A DNA stretch of 64,000 nucleotides from Polyangium spumosum (GTDB lineage: Bacteria > Myxococcota_A > Polyangia > Polyangiales > Polyangiaceae), in contig NZ_WJIE01000001.1 of the NCBI RefSeq assembly GCF_009649845.1, positions 1-64,000 on the forward strand, in the 5' to 3' direction. The translations under genes were made by a program, and so were the position numbers. A model generated the notes under the pieces. It was not told the origin of the DNA. It saw only the letters and a list, made by a program, of their open reading frames with translations, and searched no databases. Positions 3,447 through 48,202 of this stretch are shown piece by piece. Position 1 is the first letter of the stretch. Each line of letters opens with the position of its first letter.

Positions 3447-4294
3447 GCGCCGCCTTCTTGCGGACCGACGCGCACGACCGCCGCGTGCTCATACACCCGC
3501 TCCGCGGTCCCGCCCCCGTAAAACCTCGCCATCTCCCGCTTGGGAAGCCACGTCGTGAAGATCGTCTTGAGCTCGGGCCGCTTGTGCCGATAATCGATCA
3601 CGTCCCGCGTCCCGGTGATCCTGTCCGGAATCCACCCGGACGCGGCCGGCGCACCATCGAGCTCGTCCCCCACGTCATCGAACACCAGCACCGTCGCCCG
3701 CTTCGCCTCCCGCCGCGCCTCGATCGCCTCGGGACTCTCCCCGCGCACGTCCCGCACCGCGACGAACCGCGCCCCTCGCGCGATCCGCACCTGCTCCGCG
3801 AGCCGATCCGACGCGAACCGCGGCCGCTCTCCCGGCCTCGCCGCGGGCCCGCTCCCGAGCGCCGCCATCCGCGTGTCCTCGGGCAACGCGTCGAGCGCGC
3901 CCCGCTCGATCACGCGCCGGAGCATCACGCACGCCGCCGAGGTCTTCCCGACCTGGGGCTTGGGCCCGAGCAGGACCACATTCCGGCCCGCCTCGACGGC
4001 CTCCGTGAGCTCCCGCCGAACCCGTGGCCATTCCTTGATCCGCGCGTGTTTCAGCCGCTCGGCCGCCTCATCGTCCCCGGGGATCGCCCACTGGAAACGC
4101 GGCGGGATCGAGCGCAGGGCCGGAAGCAGCTCCCGCTGATACTTCGCCCGGACCTCGTCCTCCACGCACCCCGCACACACGCCCGGCAGGCGCGTCGTCC
4201 GCCCGCAGTCATTCGCGCACGCGTACACCCCGACGGGCGGCCCTGCAAAACGCGTCAAGGTCTCCGCCATCGATTGAAAGCCATCGCGCCTCAT
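3443..4294 (-). CDS. DnaC/lambda P-like helicase loader ATPase
   Basis: This 283-residue protein has an N-terminal zinc-ribbon-like set of cysteines (C26, C30, C40, C43). An AAA+ ATPase follows: Walker A GPKPQVGKTS (110-119), Walker B TVLVFDDVGDE (from about 201), and a DnaC-like end, TIFTTWLPKREMARFYGGG...ERV, with the sensor and arginine region. The family loads DnaB helicase at origins. The start at 4294 has a GGAGGT Shine-Dalgarno eight bases upstream and overlaps the initiator stop by ATGA, so the two are translationally coupled. The pairing with the iteron-bearing initiator mirrors lambda O and P. IstB of transposons is an alternative family, but no transposase is present. Confidence 0.85.
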   Translation of the reverse strand: MRRDGFQSMAETLTRFAGPPVGVYACANDCGRTTRLPGVCAGCVEDEVRAKYQRELLPALRSIPPRFQWAIPGDDEAAERLKHARIKEWPRVRRELTEAVEAGRNVVLLGPKPQVGKTSAACVMLRRVIERGALDALPEDTRMAALGSGPAARPGERPRFASDRLAEQVRIARGARFVAVRDVRGESPEAIEARREAKRATVLVFDDVGDELDGAPAASGWIPDRITGTRDVIDYRHKRPELKTIFTTWLPKREMARFYGGGTAERVYEHAAVVRVGPQEGGA

Positions 4295-5496
4295 AAGTAC
4301 CCACCTCCGGGCGAAGCCATCGAATCGTCCGAATCGAAGAGCTCGGGAGGAGCCTCCTTTTCGCAGGCATCCCCGAGCGGCTGCAATCCCACGGCCCGAC
4401 GAGGACCGGGCCCCGCCGTCCGCCTGTCCTCGGTCATGGCCTGCTTCCAAGCGAACTTGATCCCCATGCGGATCCAGTTTTCCCAGGCTGCCCCCCAATC
4501 CGCCCAGCGCTGATCCTTTGCCCTCGCCTTGCTGCAAAACGTGGCGATCTCGTGATCCACGTCCGCCTCGGTCCACGCGAGCCCGGCCTCTTTCGCTTGG
4601 GCCAGCGCCCATTGACGCATCGTCGGTGAGGGAGCCCAGCCATCCGGCAGAGGTGTCGACGGCTTTCGCCGTTTCGCTGCCTCGCGCCCGTCGCTCGCCG
4701 AGGCGATGCCCACGAGCCCCACCTGGTAGGGCCCGGCCTCGCCCCGCGCCGCGCCTCGAGCCCGCCGCTTCGAGCTCCGCGCTTTCGTCGCCTCTCTCTC
4801 TGGATCTCTTTCTGGATCTTTCTGATCATGATCCAGAGAGAGAGGGAGAGATCCGGGCCCCGCTGAACCGCCCGGCGGTCCAGGGTGCACCGCCGGGCGG
4901 TCCAGACTGGACTGCCGGGCGGTCCAGGCTTGCGCGTCCTCGGCGCCGCCCTGAACCGCCGGGCGGTCCAGGACCGCGTTCTCGCTGGACTGCCGGGCGG
5001 TCCAGGCGTCCACCGCGCCCCCGGCAACCTCCGCGCCATCGTGAACCGCCGGGCGGTCCAGGCTGGACTGCGGGGCGGTATAGGCTCGCGCGTCCTCAGA
5101 ACCGCCGGGCGGTCCAGGCTGCACCGCCGGGCGGTCCAGCCGCTTCGAGGCCCGCTCCCGCCGCCGAGGCTCCCCGGGCGGCCCGCTGAGGGCCTCGAGC
5201 GCGATCCGGAAGGGCAACACGGGCCGCCGCGCGGTCGGCCCCTCGACCACCAGGACGCCGAGGGTCCGGAGGAACGCCACGACCTCGGCGACAACCGATT
5301 TCGACGTCCCGAGATCCCGGGCGATCGTCCCGAGGTTCGTCCGCGCGACCCCGTCGTGATCCATGCGGAGCGCAATCGCGAGGAGGACCGCCTTTTCCGC
5401 GAGCTTCAGATCGGCCCGCGTCGCCTCCCGGATCGCGCAGATCGCCACCGCGCCCAGGCTCCGACCTCCACCGAGTGCGCCGGGATCGAGCAGCAT
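4291..5496 (-). CDS. Lambda O-like replication initiator with origin iterons inside the gene
   Basis: This 401-residue protein has an N-terminal winged-helix region (about 28-85, LAEKAVLLAIALRMDHDG...LGTIARDLGTSKSVVAEV), as in phage replication proteins of the lambda O and DnaD type. A low-complexity middle (about 119-211) is encoded by nine copies of a 20-bp palindromic iteron, read in different frames as LDRPAVQ, WTARQSS and PGPPGGS. The C-terminal part (about 285-360, WTEADVDHEIATFCSKA...WADWGAAWENWIRMG) is similar to C-terminal domains of DnaD-like and phage initiators. The gene begins two bases after the methyltransferase stop and overlaps the loader. It is predicted to bind the iterons and recruit the loader and host DnaB. 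Confidence 0.8.
   Translation of the reverse strand: MLLDPGALGGGRSLGAVAICAIREATRADLKLAEKAVLLAIALRMDHDGVARTNLGTIARDLGTSKSVVAEVVAFLRTLGVLVVEGPTARRPVLPFRIALEALSGPPGEPRRRERASKRLDRPAVQPGPPGGSEDARAYTAPQSSLDRPAVHDGAEVAGGAVDAWTARQSSENAVLDRPAVQGGAEDAQAWTARQSSLDRPAVHPGPPGGSAGPGSLPLSLDHDQKDPERDPEREATKARSSKRRARGAARGEAGPYQVGLVGIASASDGREAAKRRKPSTPLPDGWAPSPTMRQWALAQAKEAGLAWTEADVDHEIATFCSKARAKDQRWADWGAAWENWIRMGIKFAWKQAMTEDRRTAGPGPRRAVGLQPLGDACEKEAPPELFDSDDSMASPGGGYL
4792..4844. repeat. 15-bp perfect inverted repeat beside the iterons
   Basis: CTCTCTCTCTGGATC (4792-4806) is the exact reverse complement of GATCCAGAGAGAGAG (4830-4844), with a 23-base spacer that is unusually AT-rich for this DNA. It lies 20 bp from the first iteron. 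The position recalls the easily melted region next to lambda-type origins. It is also inside the initiator coding sequence. Confidence 0.65.
4864..5139. repeat. Nine 20-bp iterons: candidate origin of element 1
   Basis: Copies start at 4864, 4886, 4908, 4952, 4986, 5042, 5064, 5098 and 5120. The consensus is TGAACCGCCGGGCGGTCCAG, with variants TGCACC and TGGACT at the left; the copy at 5064 is the most degenerate. Each core ACCGCCGGGCGGT is palindromic. Spacings are 22, 22, 44, 34, 56, 22, 34 and 22 bp. Because 22 and 34 are not multiples of three, the same DNA is read in all three frames of the host gene. This indicates selection on the DNA rather than on the protein. Confidence 0.85.
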
Positions 5497-5497
5497 C

Positions 5498-6334
5498 CTA
5501 TTCCCCGAACAGTCCGAGTTGGTGCGCCTTCCGCATGTGCCGCGCGTCCGTGCTCTGTGACTTGATCGCCTCCCGAGCTCGCGCCGCGATCCTCTTGTCG
5601 ATCTCGCTCCCGAGGAACCGCATCCCGAGCCGCCGCGCGGCAACCCCCGTCGAGCCGCCCCCCGTGAAGAAATCGACGACGAGGCCCCCGGGCGGAGCCA
5701 CGACCCCGAGACAGCGCTCGATCACCTCGGGAGGCTTGGCCGTTTGGTGATTCCGCGCCTCATGGTGGAGCCGCGAGCCGTTCAGGACGTCCCCCGTGCT
5801 CGCGTCGTGGAAGATCCCCGTTCCTTTCACGAAATGGAGGACGACCTCGTGTTGACGCCGGAACCCCGTCCCGAGGGCCGGAGCTCCCTTGTCCCAGATG
5901 ATCATCCCCTGCCAGCGCAGCCCGCTCGATTCGAGCGCCGGAGCGAGGAGCGGAACCATCCGCCAATCGCAAAAGACCCCGAGGCTCCCGCCCTCGACCA
6001 GGATCCGGAACGCTTGAACCGCGACGCAGCGGAGGAGCCACACGATCCCCGCCGAGCCCATGTTGTCATTGATGAACCAGCCCATGGCCTTCACGCTTTG
6101 ATGCCGGATCATCCCGCGGGACTGGCGCTTGGCGGACTCCGTGTACCCGCCCGAGCAGTAGGGCGGATCGGTCCAAACCGCATGCGCGCACGCGTCCGGG
6201 AGCGTTTCGGCGAAGTCGAGCGCATCAGCCGTGCTCACGTGCCACCCGGCCGAGCCTGCGATCACCTCGTCGGTCGAGCCCTCGCGCCCAAGCATGAGCG
6301 AATCGGGAGCCGCTGACATCGAGCGAGCCACCAT
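5498..6334 (-). CDS. Site-specific DNA methyltransferase (adenine-N6 or cytosine-N4), element 1
   Basis: This 278-residue amino-methyltransferase has the catalytic motif DPPY (56-59) before the AdoMet-binding motif DFFTGGGSTG (221-230), the order of the beta class. No restriction endonuclease is next to it, so it is probably a solitary phage methyltransferase that protects the element or regulates it. It is nearly identical to the methyltransferase at 8920-9759 in the opposite orientation. It leads the replication operon: the initiator starts immediately after it. The sequence just upstream contains a site shared with the other copy (6391-6407). Adenine versus cytosine specificity cannot be settled from sequence. 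Confidence 0.9.
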   Translation of the reverse strand: MVARSMSAAPDSLMLGREGSTDEVIAGSAGWHVSTADALDFAETLPDACAHAVWTDPPYCSGGYTESAKRQSRGMIRHQSVKAMGWFINDNMGSAGIVWLLRCVAVQAFRILVEGGSLGVFCDWRMVPLLAPALESSGLRWQGMIIWDKGAPALGTGFRRQHEVVLHFVKGTGIFHDASTGDVLNGSRLHHEARNHQTAKPPEVIERCLGVVAPPGGLVVDFFTGGGSTGVAARRLGMRFLGSEIDKRIAARAREAIKSQSTDARHMRKAHQLGLFGE

Positions 6335-6677
6335 GGCGAGGACAGTATCAGCCCGCGATCGAACGTCTCAACTGAAACCGAATGCAACAGCGGACATTAT
6401 CCGTCCGATCGCATCGACACTGTAACGATACGGAGCCCCCGGAAACATGGCCGTCCGTGCCTTTCATCACCGGCCAGGACAACCGCGTGGAAGGCCGATT
6501 TACCGCCACTTCTGCGACGAATGCGCGCCCCAGCCTATGATTCACGCGGTTCCAGCATGGGACACATAATGTCCTAGGTTGCGTCATTCCATGCTGGCAC
6601 TTCACGACCGGCCCGGCCGATAGTGCTCCCATCGACCCCGGGGCGGGCCCTGGGGCTCGCTTCACCCGAAACACGCG
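6335..6677. other. Divergent intergenic region between methyltransferase and integrase module
   Basis: This region has no supported gene. The first 75 bp are similar to the mirror-image region upstream of the second methyltransferase (8840-8919), including the site at 6391-6407. The rest carries no obvious repeat; it likely holds the divergent promoters for the methyltransferase operon and the small ORF-integrase pair. Confidence 0.6.
6391..6407 (+). promoter_or_regulatory. Operator-like half-site upstream of methyltransferase 1
   Basis: CGGACATTATCCGTCCG lies exactly 57 bp from the methyltransferase start at 6334. The same sequence (CGGACATAATCCGTCCG when read away from the gene) occurs 57 bp upstream of the second methyltransferase. 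The strict spacing suggests a promoter element or regulator-binding site. Confidence 0.55.
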
Positions 6678-6950
6678 ATGGCACGTCGAGCGACCCGTCC
6701 CAAGAACGAGCCGAGCAAGCCCCACGAGGAGGGCGCAGAGGTGCCCAACCCCTGCACTCCGTGCGCGCAGCCCACGCGAGGAGCAGGGAAGGGGACCACG
6801 ACGAAGACGAGCCCCACGGCGCACCAAGACGAGGTTCGGATCACCGTGGGCCCTTCCCCCGCGGGAAAACGCTTTGATCGCGAAGCGTTCGTCCGGGCAC
6901 TCGCGGCGCTTGTCGTGGCAGACCTTTTGGACTATCCTCCCAAGCCGTGA
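6678..6950 (+). CDS. Conserved small protein preceding serine integrase 1
   Basis: This 90-residue protein has a disordered, charged N-terminus and a conserved helical C-terminus, FDREAFVRALAALVVADLLD followed by YPPKP. The protein at 42683-42946, in front of the second integrase, ends similarly (FAVALAELVLEDLLKYPPDK). Both overlap the integrase start by four bases (GTGA here, ATGA there). Small proteins tied to serine integrases can be recombination directionality factors, but this is inference from position only. Confidence 0.65.
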   Translation: MARRATRPKNEPSKPHEEGAEVPNPCTPCAQPTRGAGKGTTTKTSPTAHQDEVRITVGPSPAGKRFDREAFVRALAALVVADLLDYPPKP

Positions 6951-8668
6951 CCATGCGATTGCTCAACATGCGGATCGCGCTGTACGCCCGGCGCTCGACC
7001 GACGAACACCAGATGGCCTCCGTCGAGGTCCAATTGCAGGAGGCGCAGCGTTACGTCCTCGCGAACGGGGGGACCGTCGCGCCCGATCACGTCTTCATCG
7101 ACGACGCCGTGAGCCGCGCCGAGTTCAAGAAGCGGCCCGGCCTGATTTCGCTCTTGAACGCCGCGAACGCGGGCCAGTTCGACGCCGTCATCGTCCGGGA
7201 TGATTCCCGCCTCGGCGGGGATACCTTCCGGTCCGGCCTCGTGATCCAGGACCTTTTGGAGACGGGAACGCGCCTCTTCTACTACTACAAGAACGAGGAG
7301 GTCACCCTCGACGGCGCCGTCGACAAGTTCATGATCGCGGCCCGGAGCTTCGCCGCGGAGCTCGAACGCGAGAAGACATCCCAGCGCACCCACGAGCACC
7401 TTTTGACGAAGGCCCGGCGCGGGCTCGTCGTCGGGGGGCGCGTGTACGGCTACGACAACGCCGAGGTCCTCGATGGCGAGCAGCGCGTCCGCGTCGAGTA
7501 CAAAATCAACGAGGAGCAGGCGCAGATTATCCGCGAGCTTTTCAAGCGGTACGCGGACGGCGAGGGCCTACGCTCTATCGTCAAGGACTTGAACGCGCGC
7601 CGAGTTCCGCCGCCGCGCGCTGGCAAGCGAGGGACGGGATCGTGGGCGACCTCGGCCGTCTGGTCGATGCTCCGCCGCGAGCGCTACCGCGGGATCCTCG
7701 TCTGGAACACGAGGGAGAAGACCTACAAGGGCGGGACGAAGGTCCGGATCGCGCGGGATCCTTCCGAGTGGATCCGCGCCGAGGCGCCCCAGCTTCGGAT
7801 CGTGGACGACGAGCTTTGGTTTGCCGTCCAGGCCAGGGCGCAGACGCAGGAGCACCGCGAGAGCCGACGCGGCGCCGGGCGACCCGCGCGCCACCTCCTG
7901 TCAGGCCTCGGCCGCTGCGGTCAGTGCGGCGGACCGATGACCGTGACGAACGGCAAACGCAGCTACGAGACCGTGAAGGTCTACGGCTGCGCCTACAGCC
8001 GCGATCGGGGGAAGGCTGTCTGTACCAACACCCTGCGCCGGCCCGTGGACGGCATCAACAACGCCGTGGCCAAGTGGATCTCGGAGACCGTCCTTTCCGA
8101 GGAGCTCCTTCTGGACGTGCTCCAAAACGTCCGGGAGCGGCTCGCCGAGCGGACGACCAAGACGACGACGGATCTGCCCCGGATGGAGAAGGAGGCCACG
8201 CGGCTCCGGACCGAGATCGATCGTCTCATCACGGCCCTGGCGACGATCGACCAGAAGCCCGAGGCCGTGATCCGCGCCATCGCCGAGCGTCAAGAGGAGC
8301 TCTCCGCGCTCGAGGCCCGGCTCCGCGGAGCCAAGGCAGCGCCCGAGGCGATCCACCTCGAGCTCCGGCGGATGGAGGCGGAGGCCCGCACGCGGCTCGA
8401 TGAGCTGAAGGGGATCTTGACCCGCAAGCCCGAGCAGGCCCGCGAGGTGATCAGCATGCTCTTCGAGGGGCCGATCAAGCTCACGCCGATCGAGACCCCA
8501 GAGGGGAAGCGCTTCTGGGTGGAGGGGTCCGCGAACCTGTGGGCCTTGCTCGCGGCTGGATGTCTTAAATCAGCGTCCCCAGGGGGACACGAACGGTACT
8601 GCACTTCAAAAAAGCGGCGAATGCAGGGGTATCAAATGCCCCTCCCGGTCCAAATCCTCTGGAACTGA
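6947..8668 (+). CDS. Large serine integrase of element 1
   Basis: This 573-residue recombinase has a resolvase-type N-terminal domain with catalytic Ser17 in ALYARRS and conserved arginines in VIVRDDSRLGGD. A recombinase domain follows (about 185-300, KRYADGEGLRSIVKDLNAR), then a zinc ribbon (CGQCGGPM near 324 and C...C near 348-359), a coiled coil (about 385-480) and a C-terminal tail. It overlaps the upstream small ORF by GTGA. The last residues after ASP are encoded by DNA to the right of the att core, that is by element 2. In an unoccupied arrangement the frame would run into the tRNA and end AGFEPA, exactly as integrase 2 does. The two integrases are clearly homologous but diverged. Confidence 0.95.
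   Translation: MTMRLLNMRIALYARRSTDEHQMASVEVQLQEAQRYVLANGGTVAPDHVFIDDAVSRAEFKKRPGLISLLNAANAGQFDAVIVRDDSRLGGDTFRSGLVIQDLLETGTRLFYYYKNEEVTLDGAVDKFMIAARSFAAELEREKTSQRTHEHLLTKARRGLVVGGRVYGYDNAEVLDGEQRVRVEYKINEEQAQIIRELFKRYADGEGLRSIVKDLNARRVPPPRAGKRGTGSWATSAVWSMLRRERYRGILVWNTREKTYKGGTKVRIARDPSEWIRAEAPQLRIVDDELWFAVQARAQTQEHRESRRGAGRPARHLLSGLGRCGQCGGPMTVTNGKRSYETVKVYGCAYSRDRGKAVCTNTLRRPVDGINNAVAKWISETVLSEELLLDVLQNVRERLAERTTKTTTDLPRMEKEATRLRTEIDRLITALATIDQKPEAVIRAIAERQEELSALEARLRGAKAAPEAIHLELRRMEAEARTRLDELKGILTRKPEQAREVISMLFEGPIKLTPIETPEGKRFWVEGSANLWALLAAGCLKSASPGGHERYCTSKKRRMQGYQMPLPVQILWN
8573..8604 (+). other. attL of element 2 (junction with element 1)
   Basis: The core GCGTCCCCAG (8573-8582) is identical to 44578-44587 in the same orientation. 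The right arm 8583-8604 (GGGGAC...GGTACTGCAC) is the reverse complement of the arm at 44564-44585 with two mismatches in 22. Joining the two element arms gives a 46-bp palindrome around AG, the expected form of a serine-integrase attP. The left arm (TCTTAAATCA side) belongs to element 1. The site is inside the 3' end of integrase 1. Confidence 0.85.
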
Positions 8669-8863: not shown

Positions 8864-8919
8864 TTACGTCCACTGGAATCCGTTGAAATCATCGACTTTC
8901 GGCTGATAGGGTCCTCGCC

Positions 8920-9759
8920 ATGGTCGCTCGACCGAAGGCGGCGGATCCCGAGGTGCTCGCGCACGGGCGCGAGGGCTCGCCGGACGAAGTGATCGCAGGC
9001 TCGGCCGGGTGGCACGTGAGCACGGCTGACGCGCTCGACTTCGCCGAAACGCTCCCGGACGCGTGCGCGCATGCCGTGTGGACCGATCCGCCCTACTGCT
9101 CGGGCGGCTACACCGAGACGGCCAAGCGCCAAGCGCGCGGGATGCTCCGGCATCAAACCGTCAAGAGCCTCGGCTGGTTCATCAACGACAACATGGGCTC
9201 GGCGGGGATCGTGTGGCTCCTCCGCTGCGTCGCGGTCCAAGCGTTCCGGATCCTGCTCGAGGGCGGGAGCCTCGGCGTCTTCTGCGATTGGCGGATGGTT
9301 CCGCTCCTCGCGCCGGCCCTCGAATCGAGCGGGCTGCGCTGGCAGGGGATGATCATCTGGGACAAGGGAGCGCCGGCCCTCGGGAGCGGGTTCCGGCGCC
9401 AACACGAGGTCGTCCTTCACTTCGTGAAAGGGACCGGCGTCTTTCACGATGCGAGCACGGGGGACGTTCTGAACGGCTCGCGGCTCCACCATGAGGCGCG
9501 GAATCACCAAACGGCCAAGCCTCCCGAGGTGATCGAGCGGTGCCTCGGGGTGGTCGCTCCGCCCGGGGGACTCGTCGTCGATTTCTTCACGGGGGGCGGC
9601 TCGACGGGCGTTGCCGCGCGGCGGCTCGGGATGCGGTTTCTCGGGAGCGAGATTGATCGGGGGATCGCGGCGAGGGCGCGAGAGGCGATCAAGTCACAGA
9701 GCACGGACGCGCGGCGCGTGCGGAAGGCGCACCAACTCGGCCTTTTCGATGGCGAGTAA
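8920..9759 (+). CDS. Site-specific DNA methyltransferase, element 2
   Basis: This 279-residue protein is nearly identical along its whole length to the element 1 copy, with DPPY at the same place and the DFFTGGGSTG AdoMet motif. Differences are concentrated at the two ends. It is the first gene inside attL and is followed, with an overlap or short gap, by the PrimPol-helicase gene. With the other copy it forms roughly 0.9-kb inverted repeats around the integrase 1 region, long enough for homologous recombination. Confidence 0.9.
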   Translation: MVARPKAADPEVLAHGREGSPDEVIAGSAGWHVSTADALDFAETLPDACAHAVWTDPPYCSGGYTETAKRQARGMLRHQTVKSLGWFINDNMGSAGIVWLLRCVAVQAFRILLEGGSLGVFCDWRMVPLLAPALESSGLRWQGMIIWDKGAPALGSGFRRQHEVVLHFVKGTGVFHDASTGDVLNGSRLHHEARNHQTAKPPEVIERCLGVVAPPGGLVVDFFTGGGSTGVAARRLGMRFLGSEIDRGIAARAREAIKSQSTDARRVRKAHQLGLFDGE

Positions 9760-9784
9760 TCTCGTCGATTTTCGGAGAACGAAC

Positions 9785-16058: not shown

Positions 16059-16275
16059 GCCGAGACCCCATGCATGACCGAAATGATACGGAGGCCGCCA
16101 ACTCACCGTTAGCTAAGCGCGCCATTGCTCCCGTCCGAAGAATCGAGCGGTTGGCCGAATAAACCAGCGGTGAGCATCGCACATCCGGTGTCCGCTGGCA
16201 AGGTGTCCGTTTGTCGCAAGAGGCTCGGCATCCTGTTGGGCGGGCCGGGCTCCTGCCTATGTAAGCGATCCCGCC

Positions 16276-17058
16276 GAGGTCGAGGGCGACGGGGAGGCCG
16301 GGCCTGGTCGAGGGGCGCGAGCTCGGCGCGCGCAAGGGGGTCGAGGGCCCTCGGCGAGGCGGCTGGCCCTCGTCGAAAATCTTCCCCGGGGTCGAGGCGC
16401 CCGGACCGCGCTCGACGTCGTATTTCCGCCACCCCCGCATCCGGGGGGGTCGAGGTGGCGGAAACCAAGGCGGCGGAAACCCTCCGCGGCGAGCTCCTCG
16501 ACGAGGGGCGCGAGGCTCGACGCGAGGAGCTCGATCGCGGGTTCGTCGGAGCCGCACGTTGACCGAGGGGCCGGCGTCGAGGCCGGCGATCGAGGCGAGG
16601 TCGAGGGCGACGGGGAGGCCGGGCCTGGTCGAGGGGCGCGAGCTCGGCGCGCGCAAGGGGGTCGAGGGCCCTCGGCGAGGCGGCTGGCCCTCGTCGAAAA
16701 TCTTCCCCGGGGTCGAGGCGCCCGGACCGCGCTCGACGTCGTATTTCCGCCACCCCCGCATCCGGGGGGGTCGAGGTGGCGGAAACCAAGGCGGCGGAAA
16801 CCCTCCGCGGCGAGCTCCTCGACGAGGGGCGCGAGGCTCGACGCGAGGAGCTCGATCGCGGGTTCGTCGGAGCCGCACGTTGACCGAGGGGCCGGCGTCG
16901 AGGCCGGCGATCGAGGCGAGGTCGAGGGCGACGGGGAGGCCGGGCCTGGTCGAGGGGCGCGAGCTCGGCGCGCGCAAGGGGGTCGAGGGCCCTCGGCGAG
17001 GCGGCTGGCCCTCGTCGAAAATCTTCCCCGGGGTCGAGGCGCCCGGACCGCGCTCGAC
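16276..17058. repeat. 321-bp tandem repeat, 2.4 copies
   Basis: Two full units (16276-16596, 16597-16917) appear identical; a third is cut after 141 bp at 17058, where AT-rich sequence begins. The unit length is 107 codons, so minus-strand frames stay open as a 107-residue repeat, but these translations are Arg/Pro-rich and look like by-products. An inverted, diverged copy is at 1-395. It separates cargo from the virion operon. Confidence 0.9.
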
Positions 17059-17121
17059 ATTTTATTTTTTGCTTCCCCTGATCCCCGACCGGAGCGACCC
17101 TTCGACGAAGGGAGGTCCGCT

Positions 17122-17532
17122 ATGGCCTCGATGGATTCCAATTGGGAAGAGGTGGTCAATGTCGTCGCGGCGCGTACCCCCGGCGCGGCGCGCGTGGAAT
17201 CGCGCCTGCTCGGCTGCATCGAGCTTGCGGAAGCGGGGGCCATGATCGGCGAAGCGACCACGCATCCGGATTGGCGCCGTCGGCTACTGCGGCGGCTTCG
17301 GGCGCTCGAAAAGGAGCACCACGTCGAGATCCTCGTTTCGCGCAGGGGTCGGGAGGGGGCGATGGTGCGGATCGAGGGGCTTTATCTGGCCTGTCCGGTT
17401 CCGGTCGCGGCGGCGCTGGCCGTTCAGGAGCTCCGCGAACGGTGCGTCGCCCTGGAGCAGCGGCTCGCGGCGGTCGAACGCGAGATCGGCGGCCCGGCGT
17501 CTACAATGCGACCGAAAACGGGCCAAAAATGA
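17122..17532 (+). CDS. Phage protein of unknown function, first gene of the virion operon
   Basis: This 136-residue protein has a strong GGGAGG Shine-Dalgarno seven bases before the ATG. The N-terminal half is helical and basic (WRRRLLRRLRALEKEHH). The C-terminal part has a short heptad-like coiled coil (QELRERCVALEQRLAAVERE). It may be a DNA-binding or regulatory protein. Its stop overlaps the next start by ATGA, so it is coupled to the HNH gene. Confidence 0.7.
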   Translation: MASMDSNWEEVVNVVAARTPGAARVESRLLGCIELAEAGAMIGEATTHPDWRRRLLRRLRALEKEHHVEILVSRRGREGAMVRIEGLYLACPVPVAAALAVQELRERCVALEQRLAAVEREIGGPASTMRPKTGQK

Positions 17533-18184: not shown

Positions 18185-18709
18185 ATGAGCGGCCGGCCGA
18201 CTCTCCGAACCCCCGAGGTTGAAAAGCAGATCCTCGACGCTCTCCGGCTCGGACAACTGCATCGCCCGACCGTCTGCGCGCTCGTCGGGATCAAGCCGCG
18301 CACGTTGCGGGATTGGCGAAAGCAGGATCCCGCCTTCGACGCTGCGATCCGAGCCGCGGAAGCGAAGGGCGAAGCGCGGCTCGCCTCGATCGCGACGCAA
18401 GGGGCCGCGGACGATCCGCGCCTCGCGCTCGACATCCTGCGCGCGCGGTATCCCGAGAAGTGGAATCGCAGGCATACGCGGGTCGATGGCAACGTCCACG
18501 TGGACGTCGCTCGTCCGTCGACGCTCCCGAAGGAGCTCCGCGCCGCGTGGGACGCGGGCGCGAAGAGCGGGTGGAAGGATCGGAAGGCTTGTCGGGAGCT
18601 GGAAATCTATTGGGCGACGGGGGAGATCGGGAGGCCCGAGCAGATCGCGGCGCTCGAAAAGCTCCTGGCCGAGCTCAAAGCAAACCCGGAGCCGTACCTC
18701 GGGGAATAG
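18185..18709 (+). CDS. Terminase small subunit
   Basis: This 174-residue protein has an N-terminal helix-turn-helix (VEKQILDALRLGQLHRPTVC...GIKPRTLRDWRKQDPAF). A helical oligomerisation region and a basic segment (YPEKWNRRHTR) typical of small terminases that pick phage DNA follow. It is directly upstream of the large subunit. Confidence 0.8.
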   Translation: MSGRPTLRTPEVEKQILDALRLGQLHRPTVCALVGIKPRTLRDWRKQDPAFDAAIRAAEAKGEARLASIATQGAADDPRLALDILRARYPEKWNRRHTRVDGNVHVDVARPSTLPKELRAAWDAGAKSGWKDRKACRELEIYWATGEIGRPEQIAALEKLLAELKANPEPYLGE

Positions 18710-18713
18710 CTCG

Positions 18714-20123
18714 ATGGCGAAGGCTTTCGGCTATCGGGTCGGCGATTTCTCCTACCGGGAGCACGGCCGGATCGCGGCGGCCCCCTCCGAAGGCCTCGCG
18801 GCGTTCATACCGGCCGTAACGCCCGGGTATTCGCGCCCGGATCATCTTGGCCCGCTGATCGAGCTCCTCGAGCGCGCGCGGCGCGAGCCTGTCCGCGCGG
18901 TGATCCACGCTCCGCCGCGCCACGGGAAGACGGACACGATCCTCCATGCGATTGCGTGGTACCTGCGGAAGGATCCCACCCTCCCGATCGCTTATGCGAC
19001 GTACGGGATCGAGCTAGCCAACAGCAAGAGCCGCGACGCTCGGGCGATGGCGCGCGCGGCCGGCGTCGAGCTCGATGCCGGGGCGAAGGGCGTCGGCGAG
19101 TGGCGCACGCGCGAGGGCGGGCGGGCCGTGTTCACGGCGCTAAACGGCTCGCTGACGGGCAAGGGCTTTCGGGTCCTCTTCGTGGATGACCCCTTCAAGA
19201 ACCGGATCCAGGCGGAAAGCCCGACCTATCGCTCGCGGATCTGGGACCTCTGGCAGGGCTCGACGATCAACCGTGTCGAGCCGGGCGGGAGCGCAATCGT
19301 CCTTGCCACGCGGTGGCATCCTGAAGACCTCTCGGGGCGGCTGATCTCCCAGGGGTGGCAATACCTCCGCCTCCCTGCGCTCTCCGACGACGGGCGCGCG
19401 CTCTGGCCCGAACGATGGCCCGCGGCCGAGCTCGAAGCACGGCGGCGCGAGGTCGGAGAGTATACGTGGGCCTCGCTGTATCAAGGCGTCCCGAGGCCTC
19501 GGGGCGGGGCCGTGTTCAACGCTGAGCCGGCCCTCTATACCTCCGCGGCCCTCGACGTGGTGCGGGAGTATCGCGACGGGATCGGCGTCGATTTCGCGTA
19601 TACCGCGCGGAAGCACGCGGATTACTCGTCGGCGGTCGTCATGCGCTCGCACGAACCGGAGCGCGGGCGGCGCGTTTACTACGTGCTCGAATGCCTGCGG
19701 AAGCAGGTCCTTGCGCCGGAGTTTGCCGCGGAGGGCGCGCGGCTGCAACGGGCGCACGGGGGATGCAAGGCAATGGGCTACGTCACGGTGTTCGAAAAGA
19801 TGATCGTCCCCTTCATGTCGGATCGGGGCTTCACGGTCGAGGCGCGCCGGGTGAAGGCGGACAAGTTCACGCGGGCGCAACCCTACGCGGCGTCCTGGAA
19901 CGATGGGCGCGTGCTCCTCCCGGAAGACGTGGGCCCGGATTCGTGGGTCAACGTCTTCCTGGCGGAGCATCTTCGGTTCACGGGGCAGGACGACGACGAA
20001 GACGACCAGGTCGACGCCGGCGCGGCCGCGCATGACCTGCTCGCCTCGCCCGCGGGGCGGATTGCGGGATCGTTCTCCGCGGCGAACAAACGGCCGGTGA
20101 AGCTCACGAGGTACACCCGATGA
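18714..20123 (+). CDS. Terminase large subunit
   Basis: This 469-residue protein has an N-terminal packaging ATPase with Walker A HAPPRHGKTDT (about 67-76) and Walker B VLFVDDP. A coupling region with ATRWHPEDLSGR comes next. The C-terminal RNase-H-like nuclease has acidic residues in IGVDFAYTARKHADYSS and later in DDDEDDQVDAGAAA. The translation start is the ATG at 18714. The stop overlaps the portal ATG (ATGA). Nuclease motifs look intact. Confidence 0.93.
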   Translation: MAKAFGYRVGDFSYREHGRIAAAPSEGLAAFIPAVTPGYSRPDHLGPLIELLERARREPVRAVIHAPPRHGKTDTILHAIAWYLRKDPTLPIAYATYGIELANSKSRDARAMARAAGVELDAGAKGVGEWRTREGGRAVFTALNGSLTGKGFRVLFVDDPFKNRIQAESPTYRSRIWDLWQGSTINRVEPGGSAIVLATRWHPEDLSGRLISQGWQYLRLPALSDDGRALWPERWPAAELEARRREVGEYTWASLYQGVPRPRGGAVFNAEPALYTSAALDVVREYRDGIGVDFAYTARKHADYSSAVVMRSHEPERGRRVYYVLECLRKQVLAPEFAAEGARLQRAHGGCKAMGYVTVFEKMIVPFMSDRGFTVEARRVKADKFTRAQPYAASWNDGRVLLPEDVGPDSWVNVFLAEHLRFTGQDDDEDDQVDAGAAAHDLLASPAGRIAGSFSAANKRPVKLTRYTR

Positions 20124-22387
20124 CTCGCGCTCCTCGCGTCCGCTACGCGCAACATGTCTTCGCGCCGCTCATGGGCTGGGATAACGATCGCGTGCGGCAA
20201 GCGCTCGAACGGCATGAGGCGGGAGACTTCCGCGAGTCGGCGGACCTCGCGGAAGCGCTGTTGACCGACGAGCGGCTCGATGGCGCTCTCCAGCAACGGA
20301 TCGACGGGCTGCTCGCGCTGCCGCTCTCCTTCGAGGTCTCGACCGAGACGGGCGACGCGGCGGCGGCGGAGCTCGCGCAGAAGAAGGCCGCGGAGGTCTG
20401 GTGGCGCTTTTGTCCCGAGCCTGTCCTGCGTGACGTCCTGAAGTGGTTGATCATGCTCGGCGTCGCGGTCGTGCAACTGAATTGGACCGAGGAGCGGGGG
20501 CAATGGCTGCCGCTGCTCGAGGTCTGGCATCCGCGCGATCTGTGGTTCGATGGGCATGAGGTTACGTACAGGGTCGGCACTCCGACCGCGCAGATCGCGC
20601 TCGGCGCGGATCCGTATAAGTGGGCGATCTTCGCCTCGGGGAGCCAGACACCCTGGATGAACGGCGCCGTCCGCCGGGTCGCGATGTACTACCTCGCGAA
20701 ACAACAGATGTTCACGGATTGGGCCCATTACTCCGAGGTCTACGGGCATCCTACACGCGTCGGGAAGTATCCCGCGGGCCTCGATGAGAGCGACGAGACC
20801 GCGCGGGAGCGCGACGCGTACCAGGATGCGCTCGTCAACGCGGGGAAATCGCCGGTGATCATGCTCCCGGTGGATATCGACAGCGAAGGCAAGGCGGCTG
20901 CGGGCTGGGATTACGAGCTTGTTCAGGCGGACGGCGCGAGCGCGGTCGAGGTGTTCGAGCGCGGGATCCGGTACTGCGACAGCGCGGCGGCGATGGCGAT
21001 CCTCCGGCAGACGCTCACCATGGAACCGGCGCCGATCGGCTCGCATGCACTCGGGAAGGTGCATAACGCGGTTCGTCACGAGGGGAAGCGGGCGGACACG
21101 GAAGGGCTCGCGACCACGGGGCATTACGAGGTGTTGCGGCCGTGGGCCCTGTTCAACTTCGGGGATGAACGTCTCGCGCCCTGGCCAAAGTGGGACACGA
21201 GGACGCCCGAGGAACGCGAGGCGCAAGCCGAGGCCGAGGTGCTCGAGGCGCGGCGGCGCGCGGACGTGGCGAAGGCGGAAGCGGAAGCGCGGCGCGCCGT
21301 CGCTGAGGCGAAACGGGCGGAAGCCATCGCGGCGGCTGAGGCGGCGAAGCTCCGGGCCGAGACGCTCGAACGTGTCGCGGGCGCGGTCGCTGCGCTCGGC
21401 GCGAGCACGCTTGCGAGCCGCGTGGATTGGGACGCGCTGGCGAAGGACGGGGGGCTTCCCCTGGCTCCGGCGGGCAAGTCTCAGCCGCGGGAGCTCGGGC
21501 GCCGCGCCTTGTCGGGCGGCGGGAAGGTGCTCCACGTCGTGGACGGCACGTATGAGCTCTTCCGCGCTCACTTCTCGCGAGGCCGGCGGCGCGTCGTCGA
21601 TGGGAAGGACGTCAAGGCGACCGTGGGCATGGTCGCGTCCCTCGTGGCCCTGCTCGAGGCCGGCGAGGTCACGCATCTTGCCGTGGCATTCGACAACCCG
21701 ATCACGAGCTTCCGAAACAAGCTGTTCGAGGGATACAAGGACGATTCCGTCGTCCCGGCGGCCCTGCGCGCGCAGTTCGAGGACGCGGAAGCGGCGGCGC
21801 GCGCGCTCGGGGTCGTGGTCTGGTCGATGGACGAGTTCGAGGCCGACGACGCGCTTGCCACGGCATGCCAGAAGTACGCGCAGAACTTCGCCACAATCCG
21901 CCTCCTCTCCCCGGACAAAGACTTGGCGCAATGCCTGACACGCGCGGGCGTCGTGCTCGTGGATCGTGCTCGTGGTCGGGAGCTCGCGGCGGATGGCGTG
22001 CGGGAGCGGTTCGGCGTCGATCCGGAGAGCATCCCCGATCTGCTCGCGCTCGTGGGCGATGCCGCCGACCAGATCCCGGGGCTCGGTGGGGTGGGCATCG
22101 AGGCGGCGGCCGCGCTCTTGTCGAGATACAGCCATATTGAAGATATCCCGGAAGATGCGGCGGCTTGGGACGTCGAGGTCTGGGGCGCGGAGCGTGTCGC
22201 GGCGGCCCTGAAGGCCGGTCGAGAGGACGCGCTCCTGTACCGCGAGCTCGCCACGCTCGTTCGGAATGTCCCCCTCGAAGAGACTGCGGCAGAGCTCGCA
22301 TGGGGTGGGGAGAACGAAGGCTTTGGCGCATGGTGTGAGAGAATGAATGCAGACCATTTGAAGGGACGGTTACCTGTCGCCGGGTGA
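20120..22387 (+). CDS. Portal protein (DUF935/Mu gp29-like) fused to a 5'-3' flap endonuclease
   Basis: This is one continuous 755-residue frame. Residues 1-360 are a DUF935 portal, including KWAIFASGSQTPWMNGAVRR and the WAHYSEVYGHPTRVGKYPAG block. Residues 370-425 are an Ala/Glu/Arg coiled-coil linker. From about 469 to 745 there is a complete FEN-type nuclease: VVDGTYELFRAHF, AVAFDNPITSFRNKLFEGYK, SMDEFEADDALA, LLSPDKDLAQCL and the helix-3-turn-helix GDAADQIPGLGGVGIEAAAA. All acidic metal ligands seem present. The usual Mu-type portal is 450-530 residues, so the nuclease is an addition. An in-frame GTG at 21527 could give a separate nuclease, but it lacks a clear Shine-Dalgarno. Confidence 0.88.
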   Translation: MTRAPRVRYAQHVFAPLMGWDNDRVRQALERHEAGDFRESADLAEALLTDERLDGALQQRIDGLLALPLSFEVSTETGDAAAAELAQKKAAEVWWRFCPEPVLRDVLKWLIMLGVAVVQLNWTEERGQWLPLLEVWHPRDLWFDGHEVTYRVGTPTAQIALGADPYKWAIFASGSQTPWMNGAVRRVAMYYLAKQQMFTDWAHYSEVYGHPTRVGKYPAGLDESDETARERDAYQDALVNAGKSPVIMLPVDIDSEGKAAAGWDYELVQADGASAVEVFERGIRYCDSAAAMAILRQTLTMEPAPIGSHALGKVHNAVRHEGKRADTEGLATTGHYEVLRPWALFNFGDERLAPWPKWDTRTPEEREAQAEAEVLEARRRADVAKAEAEARRAVAEAKRAEAIAAAEAAKLRAETLERVAGAVAALGASTLASRVDWDALAKDGGLPLAPAGKSQPRELGRRALSGGGKVLHVVDGTYELFRAHFSRGRRRVVDGKDVKATVGMVASLVALLEAGEVTHLAVAFDNPITSFRNKLFEGYKDDSVVPAALRAQFEDAEAAARALGVVVWSMDEFEADDALATACQKYAQNFATIRLLSPDKDLAQCLTRAGVVLVDRARGRELAADGVRERFGVDPESIPDLLALVGDAADQIPGLGGVGIEAAAALLSRYSHIEDIPEDAAAWDVEVWGAERVAAALKAGREDALLYRELATLVRNVPLEETAAELAWGGENEGFGAWCERMNADHLKGRLPVAG

Positions 22388-22438
22388 ATTGGCGTCGATT
22401 TCGTGCTCGTCTTCAATTGACGCGCTGAATCATCCATC

Positions 22439-22460
22439 AATCAGCCAGATCTGGCTGATT
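22439..22460. promoter_or_regulatory. 22-bp perfect palindrome in the portal-protease gap
   Basis: The arms AATCAGCC and GGCTGATT flank AGATCT; the symmetry is complete over 22 bp and stops at its edges. It lies in the only sizeable gap (119 bp) of the early virion operon. It could be a regulator operator or form an RNA hairpin. Confidence 0.6.
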
Positions 22461-22477
22461 CCCGCCCGAAGGGTAGA

Positions 22478-22498
22478 GGCTCCTCATTTTGAGGAGCC
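22478..22498 (+). promoter_or_regulatory. Hairpin covering the protease Shine-Dalgarno
   Basis: GGCTCCTCA and TGAGGAGCC pair over nine bases with a TTT loop. The 3' arm contains GAGGAG, which is the ribosome-binding site 10 bases before the protease ATG at 22507. In the mRNA the site would be masked, which would lower protease translation unless opened by temperature, a factor or upstream ribosomes. Confidence 0.65.
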
Positions 22499-22506
22499 CG
22501 CACCCG

Positions 22507-23562
22507 ATGAAACGCACGGCTCGTGCCACGCTTCGCCTCGTAGACCTATCCGGGGATCCCCCTGGCGAAGTGCTGCTCTTCCGCGCGGGCGTTAACAAGT
22601 CGTACAAGGGCCTCCTCCTCTTCGACGAAGAAGCCGCGCGGCGCGTCCTGGCAGACTTCGAGGCGCACGGCGCCGAGCTCTTCTTCGACTACGACCACGC
22701 GTCCCTTTTCGGCTTCTCGAAGGGCGCGGGCGAGGCGGCGGCGTGGTTCCGGCCCGAGGTTCGCGAGGGCGCGCTCTGGGCCGTCGATGTCCGCTGGACC
22801 GAGGAAGCGGCCGAGAAGGTCCGGGCGCGGAAGTATCGCTACATCTCGCCCGCGGTCGATTACGAGCTCGATAGCAACCGGATCACGCGGCTGATCAACG
22901 TCGCGCTGACGAACCTGCCCGCTTCGCACGGGCTTCCGCCGCTGATGGCGGCTTCGCAGGGAGCAAAAGGCATGTTGGAAGGCGCGCTCGCGCATATCGC
23001 CTCGGCGCTCGGGCTCGATCCCGATTCGGCGACCGAGGACGACGTGATCAAGGCGTTTGATGATCACATGGCCGAGGAGGGCGGCGACGAGGGGGACGAC
23101 GCGCTGAAGGATAGCGACGCGGCGGAGGCCCTCGCGCAGATCCGCACGCTCACCGGGAAGGCGACGGCGCGCGAGGCGCTCGCGGCGGCGGCCGAGGAGC
23201 TGCAAGCGGCGCGCGCGGCGGCCGTGGAGGACGAGATCGGCGCGCTCGTGGATCGGGGCGTCGCGGCGAAGCTGATACCCGAGGCGGGGCGCGAGGCGTT
23301 CGTGAAGCTCGGCCGAAAGGACCTCGACGCGTTGCGGGAGCTCGTCGGGAGCTCGGGCGAGGATCCCGCGCGGGAGAAGCCGAAAGGGGATCCGCCGAAG
23401 GGCGATCCCCCGAAGAAACCGGCGGCGAGGCCCTCGCCTCCGGCGACGCGGTATCAGCAGGCGACGCTCGCGGCGCGTACGCGTCGGAATGGGGAGTTTG
23501 ATCTCCAGGTGGCGAAGACGCTGCGGATCGATCCCGCCGCGATGGATGAGGCCGACGATTGA
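22507..23562 (+). CDS. Mu gpI-like head maturation protease/scaffold
   Basis: This 351-residue protein has an N-terminal protease domain (about 1-150) with the typical Mu-I pattern, FFDYDHASLFG, AAWFRPEVREGALWAVDVRWT, RKYRYISPAV and a final TNLPASHGLP. The C-terminal half is an acidic Ala/Glu-rich helical region and a Pro/Lys linker (about 285-325), suited to an internal scaffold. The order protease, decoration, major head fits Mu. I chose ATG 22507 rather than a TTG at 22489. Confidence 0.88.
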   Translation: MKRTARATLRLVDLSGDPPGEVLLFRAGVNKSYKGLLLFDEEAARRVLADFEAHGAELFFDYDHASLFGFSKGAGEAAAWFRPEVREGALWAVDVRWTEEAAEKVRARKYRYISPAVDYELDSNRITRLINVALTNLPASHGLPPLMAASQGAKGMLEGALAHIASALGLDPDSATEDDVIKAFDDHMAEEGGDEGDDALKDSDAAEALAQIRTLTGKATAREALAAAAEELQAARAAAVEDEIGALVDRGVAAKLIPEAGREAFVKLGRKDLDALRELVGSSGEDPAREKPKGDPPKGDPPKKPAARPSPPATRYQQATLAARTRRNGEFDLQVAKTLRIDPAAMDEADD

Positions 23563-24010: not shown

Positions 24011-24958
24011 ATGATCATCACGCGTTCGAGCCTGCGGGCGATGTTCAAAGGCTTCCAGGTCCTCTTCAAAAGCGGGATGGGTATGGCGGAGCCGTGGGGC
24101 TCGAAGGTCGCCCGCACGCTCCCGAGCACGGGCGAGGAAGAGACTTACTCCTGGTTGACCGCGATCCCGGGCCTTCGGCATTGGGTGGGCCCTCGCGTAG
24201 TCGAAAACCTCCGCTCGCGTAGCTTCACGATCAAAAACAAGCCCTTCGAGAAGACTCTCGGCGTCGAGCGGGAGAAGATCGAAGACGACAAATACGGGAT
24301 GTATGGGGATTATGCGAGCCTGCTCGGGCAGCAGGCCGCGAAGCATCCCGACGACTGCATCGCGCCGATCCTCCTCTACGGGGAGCAAACGAGCTACCTC
24401 GATCCCCTCGTCGGGCCGGTTTCGCTCGTCGTCTACGATGGCCAGCCTGTCTTTTCCGAGGTGCATCCGGTGGATCAAGACGATCCCGATTCACCCGTCC
24501 AGGCGAACTATCACCCCTCGGGGATGGCGCTCACGCCGGAGAATTACGAGATCGTCCGCGCGAACATGCGGTCGCTCGTCGACGTGAACGGCCGGCGGAT
24601 CGGGATCAAACCGGATACGCTGATCGTGAGCCCGCAGAAGGAAGGCGCGGCGAAGCGGATCGTGGAAGCCGAGACGATCGCCCGCGGCGGCGCGCAGGAA
24701 GACAACATCAATCAGGGGACGGCCGAGGTGCTCGTGATCGATGAGCTGAGCGATGCGCCCGGGGTCTGGTTCCTCGCCATGCTCAAGAATCAGTTGATGC
24801 GGCCGATCATCTGGCAGGAGCGGCAAAAGCCGAGGTTTCAGGCGCTCATGAACGGGAGCGAGTACGCGTTCGTCAATAATCAATACCTCGCGGGGGTCGA
24901 CTGCCGGGGCAATGCCGCGCCGGCCGTCTGGCAGAGCATCGCGAAATGTCGCCCGTAG
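24011..24958 (+). CDS. Major head protein (Mu gpT-like)
   Basis: This 315-residue protein resembles the Mu head subunit gpT: an N-terminal MIITRSSLRAMFKGFQVLFK, YSWLTAIPGLRHWVGPRVV, and a C-terminal RPIIWQERQKPRFQ followed by a short YAFVNNQY segment. It forms the icosahedral shell with HK97-type fold. The gene is followed at once by the small head proteins. Confidence 0.9.
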   Translation: MIITRSSLRAMFKGFQVLFKSGMGMAEPWGSKVARTLPSTGEEETYSWLTAIPGLRHWVGPRVVENLRSRSFTIKNKPFEKTLGVEREKIEDDKYGMYGDYASLLGQQAAKHPDDCIAPILLYGEQTSYLDPLVGPVSLVVYDGQPVFSEVHPVDQDDPDSPVQANYHPSGMALTPENYEIVRANMRSLVDVNGRRIGIKPDTLIVSPQKEGAAKRIVEAETIARGGAQEDNINQGTAEVLVIDELSDAPGVWFLAMLKNQLMRPIIWQERQKPRFQALMNGSEYAFVNNQYLAGVDCRGNAAPAVWQSIAKCRP

Positions 24959-42682: not shown

Positions 42683-42946
42683 ATGCGCCGAGGAGCCCGA
42701 GCCAGAAGACCATCACCCCCCGAACCCGAGGCCCGTCCCGCGCCTCGCGCCAAAGGCATCGGCGGCCCCCTTCCCGAGGGGGCTGGTATGAGGGGCGATC
42801 GGGGGGAGGCAGGCCCCCCGGAGACGGGTGTCGCGACAACCCCCTCCCTACCGAAGCCCTTGGACCGATGGCGCGCGGAGTTTGCCGTTGCGCTGGCCGA
42901 GCTTGTCCTGGAAGACCTGTTGAAGTACCCTCCCGACAAATCATGA
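42683..42946 (+). CDS. Conserved small protein preceding serine integrase 2
   Basis: This 87-residue homologue of 6678-6950 has a Pro/Arg/Gly-rich N-terminus and a conserved C-terminus (FAVALAELVLEDLLKYPPDK). Its stop overlaps the integrase ATG. Conservation in two diverged integrase modules supports it as a real gene linked to recombination. Confidence 0.65.
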   Translation: MRRGARARRPSPPEPEARPAPRAKGIGGPLPEGAGMRGDRGEAGPPETGVATTPSLPKPLDRWRAEFAVALAELVLEDLLKYPPDKS

Positions 42947-44607
42947 AGCTCACCGGCCTACGTTGCGCCCTCTACGCCCGGCGCAGCAAAGAAGAGCACC
43001 AAGCCGCATCGATCGAGGTCCAAACAGGGGAGGGCGCGCGCTACATCGCCGAACAAGGCGGCGAGCTCGCTCCCGAGCACGTCTTCGTCGATGCCGATCA
43101 CGGGCGCGCCGAGTTCAAGAAGCGGCCCGGCCTGATCTCGATGCTGAATGCCGCTGCGCGCCGCGCGTTCGATGTCGTCGTGGTGCGCGACGAGTCGCGG
43201 CTCGGCGGCGACACGAACCGGACGTCCTTGTTCATCCAGGACCTCCTCGATGCCGGGGTTCGGCTCTTCTACTACTTCACCGACGAGGAGGTGATGATCG
43301 AGGGCGCCATTGACAAGTTCATGATCAACGTCCGGAACTTCGCCTCCGAGCTCGAACGGGAGAAGATCAGCCAAAGGACGCACGAGCACCTGATGACGAA
43401 GGCGCGTAAAGGGCTCAACGTGGGAGGACGCGTCTACGGATACGATAACGTCGAGGTGAAAGACGGCGATCGGCGCGTCCGCGTCGAGTACCGCGTCAAT
43501 GAGGCGGAAGCCGCGATCGTGCGTGAAATCTTCGACCGGTACGCGGGCGGCGAAGGGCTACGGACGCTCGCCAAGGACCTCAACGCTCGTCATGTTCGTC
43601 CGCCGCGCGCTGGCAAGAGGGGGACCGGCTCGTGGTCCTACTCGTCGATCTACGCGATGGTCCGGCGGGATCGATACCGCGGCGTCGTCGTCTGGGGGAA
43701 GAAGGAGAAGACGTACAAGGGCGGGACGAAGGTCCGGGTGGACCGGACGAAGGACGCCTGGGTGACGGTCGAGGTGCCCGAACTGCGGATCGTCTCCGAG
43801 GAGGTCTGGCTGGCTGTCCAAACCCGCAACGAGGAGCAGGCGCGCACGATGGGGACGAAGGCCCGCGGGCCACGGGCGCGTTACCTGCTCTCGGGGATCG
43901 GGAGGTGCGCGGAGTGCGGGGGCCCGATGCGGTCAGACCATGGCAAAGTAAGTTACGAAACGGTCCTCATGTATAGCTGCTCGTGGCATCGAGACCGAGG
44001 GCCGGCCGTGTGTGGGAACGGGCTCCGGCGGCCGATCGCGACGATCGACGCGGCAGTCATCCGCTGGATCAAGACGCACGTCCTCCGGGAGGAGGTCATC
44101 CTCCACGCGCTCAAGATGCTGCGCGAGCGTCTCGCCGAGCGGGCGAAGACGACACCACGCGAGGCGCCCGAGCTCGAGGCGGAGGCGCGGAAGCTCCGGG
44201 TGGAGATCGAGCGGCTCGGGGAGGCGATCGTCGCGACCTCGGACGCCCCGACCACGCTCGTCCGCATGATGGCGGAGCGAGAGAAGCGGCTTTCAGCCGT
44301 CGAGACCAGGCTCTCGGCCATCCGGACGGCGCCGTCGGTGCTGGATCTGGAAGTCCGGCGGATGGAGAAGGAAGCGCGCGCCCGGATCGAGGGGTTCGAG
44401 GAGCTGATCTCGCGCAACCCGGAGAAGGTGCGCTCGGCCCTCGAACGGCTGATGACGGAGCCCTTTCGCTTCGTGCCCGTCGAGACCCCAGAAGGGAAGC
44501 GGTACAACATCGAGGGCGAGATCGCCCTCGATGCCCTGTTTGTGACCGAGGCCCCAGACTCTGGTGCAGTACCGTTTGCGTCCCCAGCGGGATTCGAACC
44601 CGCGTAA
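42943..44607 (+). CDS. Large serine integrase of element 2
   Basis: This 554-residue integrase has catalytic Ser15 in ALYARRS, VVVRDESRLGGDTNR, a recombinase domain (about 185-300) and a zinc ribbon (CAECGGPM and C...C). Coiled-coil segments come next. The last nine residues, ASPAGFEPA, are read through the attR core and the tRNA-Glu 3' end. In the circular phage the same frame would continue ASPGGHERYC and on to the end now carried by integrase 1, giving about 576 residues. It mediates attP x attB recombination; excision needs a directionality factor. Confidence 0.95.
   Translation: MKLTGLRCALYARRSKEEHQAASIEVQTGEGARYIAEQGGELAPEHVFVDADHGRAEFKKRPGLISMLNAAARRAFDVVVVRDESRLGGDTNRTSLFIQDLLDAGVRLFYYFTDEEVMIEGAIDKFMINVRNFASELEREKISQRTHEHLMTKARKGLNVGGRVYGYDNVEVKDGDRRVRVEYRVNEAEAAIVREIFDRYAGGEGLRTLAKDLNARHVRPPRAGKRGTGSWSYSSIYAMVRRDRYRGVVVWGKKEKTYKGGTKVRVDRTKDAWVTVEVPELRIVSEEVWLAVQTRNEEQARTMGTKARGPRARYLLSGIGRCAECGGPMRSDHGKVSYETVLMYSCSWHRDRGPAVCGNGLRRPIATIDAAVIRWIKTHVLREEVILHALKMLRERLAERAKTTPREAPELEAEARKLRVEIERLGEAIVATSDAPTTLVRMMAEREKRLSAVETRLSAIRTAPSVLDLEVRRMEKEARARIEGFEELISRNPEKVRSALERLMTEPFRFVPVETPEGKRYNIEGEIALDALFVTEAPDSGAVPFASPAGFEPA
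44564..44587 (+). other. attR of element 2 at tRNA-Glu
   Basis: The element arm GTGCAGTACCGTT...GTCCCC (44564-44585) joins the core GCGTCCCCAG (44578-44587); the tRNA 3' end starts at 44579. It pairs with attL at 8573-8604. It lies within the 3' end of integrase 2. Confidence 0.85.
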
Positions 44608-47146: not shown

Positions 47147-47172
47147 GCGCTTCGGCCTACGCCCGCTCGCCC

Positions 47173-48114: not shown

Positions 48115-48202
48115 GGGGCCGGATCGCGCATCAACTCGGCGGCGCGGTCAAGGACGAAACGCAATCTTGACGGCGGCGCGGGCAGGCGGTCTCCTGCTCT
48201 CG

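Follow-up and report, generated by a model that had tools for sequence, protein, structure and literature searches.

The window analysed here, a stretch of 64,000 nucleotides (contig NZ_WJIE01000001.1, positions 1 to 64,000) from Polyangium spumosum, a member of a genus of soil bacteria, carries a prophage in which a portal protein of the DUF935 family and a flap endonuclease (FEN) are encoded as a single gene. The left part of the prophage encodes a serine recombinase and a Prim-Pol/D5 protein. Terminase genes lie upstream of the fusion gene, whose ATG overlaps the terminase stop codon, and a protease gene lies directly downstream, followed by genes for a virion structural protein and the major head protein. 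Genes farther on match tail sheath, tape measure and baseplate wedge, with strengths ranging from weak to clear, so the phage is likely to be contractile-tailed. No transposase match was found among the scanned genes of the prophage; consequently, the head module is Mu-like, and a transposable phage is not implied. The features discussed below are as follows.

18645..20123 (stretch scanned), + strand: large terminase
20120..22387, + strand: portal-FEN fusion gene, 755 amino acids plus stop, ATG start, no internal stop
20120..21253, + strand: portal core, residues 1-378 (PF06074 at 42-378)
21254..21472, + strand: native portal C-terminal tail, residues 379-451, with a predicted helix at 363-423
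21473..21526, + strand: linker, residues 452-469, inside the low-confidence stretch 421-466 of the structure model
21527..22384, + strand: flap endonuclease domain, residues 470-755, catalytic acids intact
21399..22512, + strand: stretch without DNA similarity to FEN-less sister prophages, a variable cargo site
22507..23562, + strand: Mu-I-like head maturation protease (PF10123), candidate cutter of the portal tail
24011..24958, + strand: major head protein

A scan of 20000-23000 for promoters and terminators found none of either, and a palindrome at about 22440-22461, behind the fusion gene, occurs in the window copy only.

The preliminary description of this DNA had read portal and nuclease as one uninterrupted frame, and this holds for all 755 codons at 20120-22387, with both domains complete. 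In Pfam searches with the 755-residue translation, Portal_Mu matches residues 42-378 (E 4.2e-61; 207.6 bits for PF06074, DUF935/Portal_Mu, against a curated cut-off of 23.9), 5_3_exonuc_N residues 471-632 (7.5e-29) and 5_3_exonuc residues 633-730 (1.9e-20); the two exonuclease profiles, PF02739 and PF01367, are complete, being covered at positions 2-164 of 164 and 1-93 of 97, and NCBIfam and PHROGs matches agree with those from Pfam. The fusion of a portal to a FEN thus stands as first described, with its domain limits revised to a portal core at 1-378, a tail reaching to about 451, a linker at 452-469 and a FEN at 470-755. With portal and nuclease in one stop-free reading frame, the protein is predicted to carry the nuclease attached to the portal.

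The fusion is not confined to the window. The P. spumosum genome holds three full copies (in the window and at C44 and C28-right) and a fourth cut by a contig end (C28-left), and Polyangium sp. y55x31 holds one at 95% identity. All are stop-free, and a sequencing or assembly error was rejected on these grounds. Because the FENs of C44 and C28-left are identical, these two could have been copied very recently or belong to a single locus, and we count three distinct fusion sequences in the P. spumosum genome. Among six Polyangium genomes the fusion is found in two, P. spumosum and G003, and FEN-less versions of the portal occur in P. spumosum (one, C21), G002, G003 and G005 (two). Among named records, FEN-less copies are present in y55x31 (one), Polyangium sp. 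15x6 (two) and P. fumosum. Genomes G001 and G004 contain neither form and gave no PF06074 match. P. spumosum additionally encodes a standalone FEN (C8, 47% identity) and PolA (C6). Between copies that differ, dN/dS ranges from 0.017 to 0.064 across residues 1-378 and from 0.105 to 0.170 across the FEN. The FENs of the window and G003 are separated by 27 amino-acid changes, where base changes placed at random give 57.9 on average (0 of 2000 trials gave a value as low as 27). Both halves are clearly under purifying selection, the FEN evolving faster than the portal yet constrained, and an intact portal-FEN fusion under selection is confirmed as real. Nevertheless the FEN is not essential, since sister prophages do without it.

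The nuclease half retains the residues expected of an active enzyme in the alignment, in which its motifs match those of Taq and Mycobacterium smegmatis Pol I: nine acids (D475, D525, E574, D576, D577, D599, D601, D647 and D650) and two basic residues of the arch (R532 and K540) are all present. None of these 11 catalytic positions is changed in three further copies (C44, C28-right and G003:C89), and the same FEN motifs are seen in the alignment of C28-left, in keeping with the earlier suggestion that the metal-binding motifs are intact. Seven standalone FENs can be aligned with the domain from end to end, at 52-57% identity, and the best identity to a standalone or PolA enzyme among the matches listed from 97 relative genomes is 58%. 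In a tree of 30 FEN rows, the three fusion FENs form a single clade (100/100) that falls within a cellular clade of 26 rows (95/95), mostly from Myxococcota and apart from PolA. Since the tree leaves 14 of its 27 inner forks open and stars 6, with a long-branch warning for L064, L062 and L007, we use this tree solely for the fusion clade and its place inside the cellular clade.

In an AlphaFold2 model of the fusion, built from an 18-row alignment (mean pLDDT 78.6, pTM 0.45), the FEN is predicted with confidence and the portal core shows weak patches; residues 363-423 form a helix, and confidence is low across 421-466. At this pTM the relative placing of the two halves, and hence the location of the FEN, is left unfixed. 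The FEN model matches plastid exonuclease 1, M. smegmatis FEN, ExoIX, Taq and T5 FEN (Z 21-29), and the portal model matches the portals of JBD30 and Mu (PDB 8rka and 9khx) at Z 21.9-23.2, with a high rmsd of 8.7-9.4. Its predicted Mu/JBD30-like fold and its setting in a packaging and head module both place the N-terminal half in the portal family. In the comparison with viral models every row shown is a portal or a nuclease; some of the rows, unnamed or portals, align over 500-800 columns at rmsd of about 20-32, and a distant fused relative could lie among them. The portal-like fold ends at model residues 376-385, which correspond to residues 388-390 of Mu and 409 of JBD30.

The stretch beyond this fold had been described as a coiled-coil linker. 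It is not one made for the fusion: five FEN-less sister portals, which end at 451-465 residues directly after a shared VPL-like end, have the coiled coil too, and it is therefore the portal's own tail, the normal C-terminus of such a protein. The FEN begins about 18 residues past the end of this tail. At the DNA level, similarity to the FEN-less copies ceases at 21368 (three copies) or 21398 (two) and returns at 22513 or 22516 in four of the five, the fifth (G003:C30) reaching a contig end before similarity returns. The last part of the tail also varies among the FEN-less copies. In one of them (G005:C49) the corresponding gap is occupied by a protein kinase gene on the opposite strand, and in three others the gap is just some 240 bases long. 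The FEN is thus added behind the portal tail at a variable site that elsewhere bears a kinase.

Searches beyond Polyangium suggest that this arrangement is rare. A match was present in 346 phage records and in 161 plasmids, and in none of either did one place cover 80% of the fusion query. Among viral contigs, a search with the whole protein matched the portal half alone at four loci, and a FEN search gave two loci at 29-31% identity, neither with a portal match. Among the matches listed from 97 relatives, 192 genomes of the class and 188 of the phylum (overlapping sets, with at most five candidates per genome scored in the class and phylum searches), no fusion was found outside Polyangium. 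PF06074 occurs at 34 places in 22 of 98 family genomes, with open frames longer than 603 residues at the five fusion places only. The profile search for DUF935-FEN fusions proposed in the preliminary description therefore found them in Polyangium only, within the sets searched, and its statement that no portal of this kind had been described agrees with our text searches, which among the open PMC papers listed showed no portal-FEN fusion.

Other additions to DUF935 portals do exist. From the best 80 viral-contig loci we obtained 71 distinct full-length DUF935 portals (71 of 82 rows, leaving out L065, L116, the contig-end runs L113, L097 and L099, and six duplicates). Of these, three carry an InPase domain and two a MuF-like domain, two match phasin weakly, and no 5'-3' exonuclease is present. 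An apparent portal-protease fusion (L065) was rejected, as its alignment crossed a stop. Given the C-terminal InPase and MuF-like additions, the slot is of a type already known and the FEN is a new cargo for it.

The portal of JBD30 has its crown and wing inside the capsid (PMC11445458, in excerpt), and by homology the portal tail and FEN would sit on the inner, crown side rather than on the outer face at which the motor docks. In the excerpted account of the Mu virion structure, the last 124 residues of the 512-residue portal gp29 are absent, and its authors suspect cleavage of the tail by protease I (PMC11915804); disorder could account for the missing residues instead. The counterpart of the last resolved gp29 residue is residue 385 or thereabouts (about 21272-21274) of the fusion, which precedes the FEN. 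If cleavage of the Mu tail holds here, the FEN is carried in and released, and is no fixed part of the mature portal. The earlier proposal of twelve nucleases at the vertex is consequently doubtful, as the absence of these 124 residues from the virion structure of Mu runs against its assumption.

Our preferred explanation, which we hold tentatively and with rather more doubt than confidence, is that the FEN is a head-loaded cargo, released by protease and acting on phage DNA. Contractile-tailed Polyangium prophages would have taken up a cellular-type 5'-3' exonuclease/FEN, fused complete behind the portal tail. The portal core would build the usual ring, with its C-terminal tail pointing into the prohead, such that up to twelve FENs would be held inside on flexible tethers. 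The head protease encoded by the next gene may then trim the tail near residue 385, as is suspected for Mu, freeing a fragment of tail plus FEN; we identified no cleavage motif in the fusion. In Mu-like phages procapsid maturation precedes packaging (PMC2628397, in excerpt). The freed FEN might act on the DNA of the phage, either within the head or, should it be ejected, in the next cell, removing 5' flaps or processing gapped or branched ends. The portal would in this way serve as a loading device, comparable to the capsid-targeting sequences of T4 internal proteins. A broader version, in which the DUF935 portal tail is a general protease-released cargo slot for different enzymes (InPase, MuF-like domains and FEN), is somewhat unlikely on present evidence, and would imply up to twelve enzyme copies per prohead, freed at maturation and acting in the head or the next host.

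Several alternative hypotheses may explain the fusion. In the first, which we consider unlikely, the FEN remains attached to the portal and removes flaps or branches as DNA is pumped in, much like T4 endonuclease VII. The covalent tie to the portal, the predicted-intact nuclease and the long flexible linker are all consistent with this, and in T4 gp49 is targeted to the portal gp20 and frees branched DNA that has become arrested (PMC9958956 and PMC3485210, in excerpt). However, branches would stall outside, away from a FEN on the inner side, if the JBD30 crown and wing inside the capsid (as excerpted) are a guide; moreover, the virion structure of Mu lacks the portal tail, and the sister prophages keep the portal without a FEN. 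A second and distinctly unlikely hypothesis is that a soluble FEN helps in late replication or recombination, before or outside assembly, with the portal as mere carrier for late and abundant expression. The resemblance of the FEN over its full length to standalone cellular enzymes, its position within their clade and the phage's own Prim-Pol/D5 replication protein all suit such a role; yet the host has a standalone FEN and PolA of its own, and in every copy found the FEN stays joined to the portal.

Very unlikely, in our view, is the production of a portal-like chain and a free FEN from the one gene, by early proteolysis or by internal initiation at TTG 21509. All four sequences tested have this codon, preceded by a weak ribosome-binding match (-6.1 kcal/mol, 12-nt spacing); in this gene, however, 7 of 39 internal start-like codons score as well or better, 9 of the 11 gene starts tested score more strongly, and the full-length fusion would remain despite such initiation. 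Another internal start, GTG 21527, was rejected because there is no start codon there in the other three sequences tested; this codon and the neighbouring GTG 21539 are start codons in the window copy only (four sequences tested). That the fusion is a recent accident, tolerated and with no role for the phage, would fit its narrow distribution (two of six Polyangium genomes) and the uptake of other genes at the same site, but is most improbable given purifying selection on the FEN across copies and two species and the unchanged catalytic positions.

Portals are among the most conserved parts of phages, and a selected repair-type nuclease on one of them would point either to the trimming of DNA at the packaging gate or to the loading of enzymes into heads by the portal. 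The tail of Mu-type portals could serve for loading proteins into capsids, and the fusion makes the purpose of this long tail, missing from the Mu structure, directly testable; prophages with and without the FEN in one genome provide a natural control.

Comparison with known systems places the fusion as follows. Mu gp29 and JBD30 gp32 (PDB 9khx and 8rka) belong to the same portal family by sequence and predicted fold, possess a C-terminal stretch past the ordered core and are encoded near a head protease, but lack a nuclease domain; the gp29 tail, ending at residue 512, is absent from the virion structure in the excerpted account. Standalone FENs of Myxococcota and others, Escherichia coli ExoIX, M. 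smegmatis FEN, T5 FEN and the Pol I 5' nuclease share the domain, catalytic acids and fold, yet these FENs are standalone or part of PolA, and none is joined to a virion protein. T4 endonuclease VII is a separate protein of another fold. It is likewise a structure-specific nuclease at the portal (gp49 at gp20), but is not covalently tied to it (PMC9958956 and PMC3485210, in excerpt). T4 internal proteins and Alt follow the logic proposed here, in that they enter the prohead, are cleaved by its protease, and are kept and later ejected; they differ in that short N-terminal sequences load them, not a portal, and in that this was shown by experiment whereas here it is proposed (PMC7411985, in excerpt). 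In MuF polymorphic toxins, too, a head-vertex protein ends in a C-terminal enzyme domain, and its gene lies beside the portal gene, but the carrier is MuF instead of the portal and the domains are toxins (PMC5576092, in excerpt), and the MuF domain PF04233 has no match in the fusion at E 0.01. Finally, the DUF935 portals L115, L110 and L085 (InPase) and L132 and L130 (MuF-like) carry, as the fusion does, an extra domain behind the core in one chain, although the domains are other ones.

In the window, ahead of the packaging genes, three direct repeats of 300 nt lie at 16265-17206 with a spacing of 321 nt; inverted copies of the same repeat occupy the extreme start of the contig (1-377), and it is also at this repeat that sister contigs come to an end. 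A separate inverted repeat (5485-6375 and 8879-9769; arms of 891 nt, 89% complementary) encloses a serine recombinase gene (6947-8668). The gene for a second large serine recombinase (42742-44607) overlaps at its 3' end a tRNA-Glu gene on the opposite strand (44578-44653), and this overlap possibly marks a prophage edge.

Elsewhere in the same genome, a 51-kb contig (G000:C28) carries two copies of the fusion of portal and flap endonuclease (FEN), at 1-2155 (cut by the contig end) and 45950-48214, lying at opposite ends and in opposed orientations. In Polyangium sp. y55x31 (locus L032), a short stretch of tandem repeats (1-400) that stays open in several frames lies close to the FEN-less portal, at the end of a contig. 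In Polyangium sp. 15x6 (L033), the site filled by the FEN in fusion prophages is taken by a protein kinase gene (PF00069) that runs the opposite way (3795-5057, minus strand).

Other C-terminal domains also occur on DUF935 portals in viral contigs. An InPase domain shares one chain with the portal in three of these (L115, 4001-6127; L110, 4001-6115; L085, 1896-3959), and a MuF-like domain follows the portal in two more, L130 (1938-4079) and L132 (4001-6142), the match in L132 scoring 26.3 bits, below the Pfam cut-off of 29.6.
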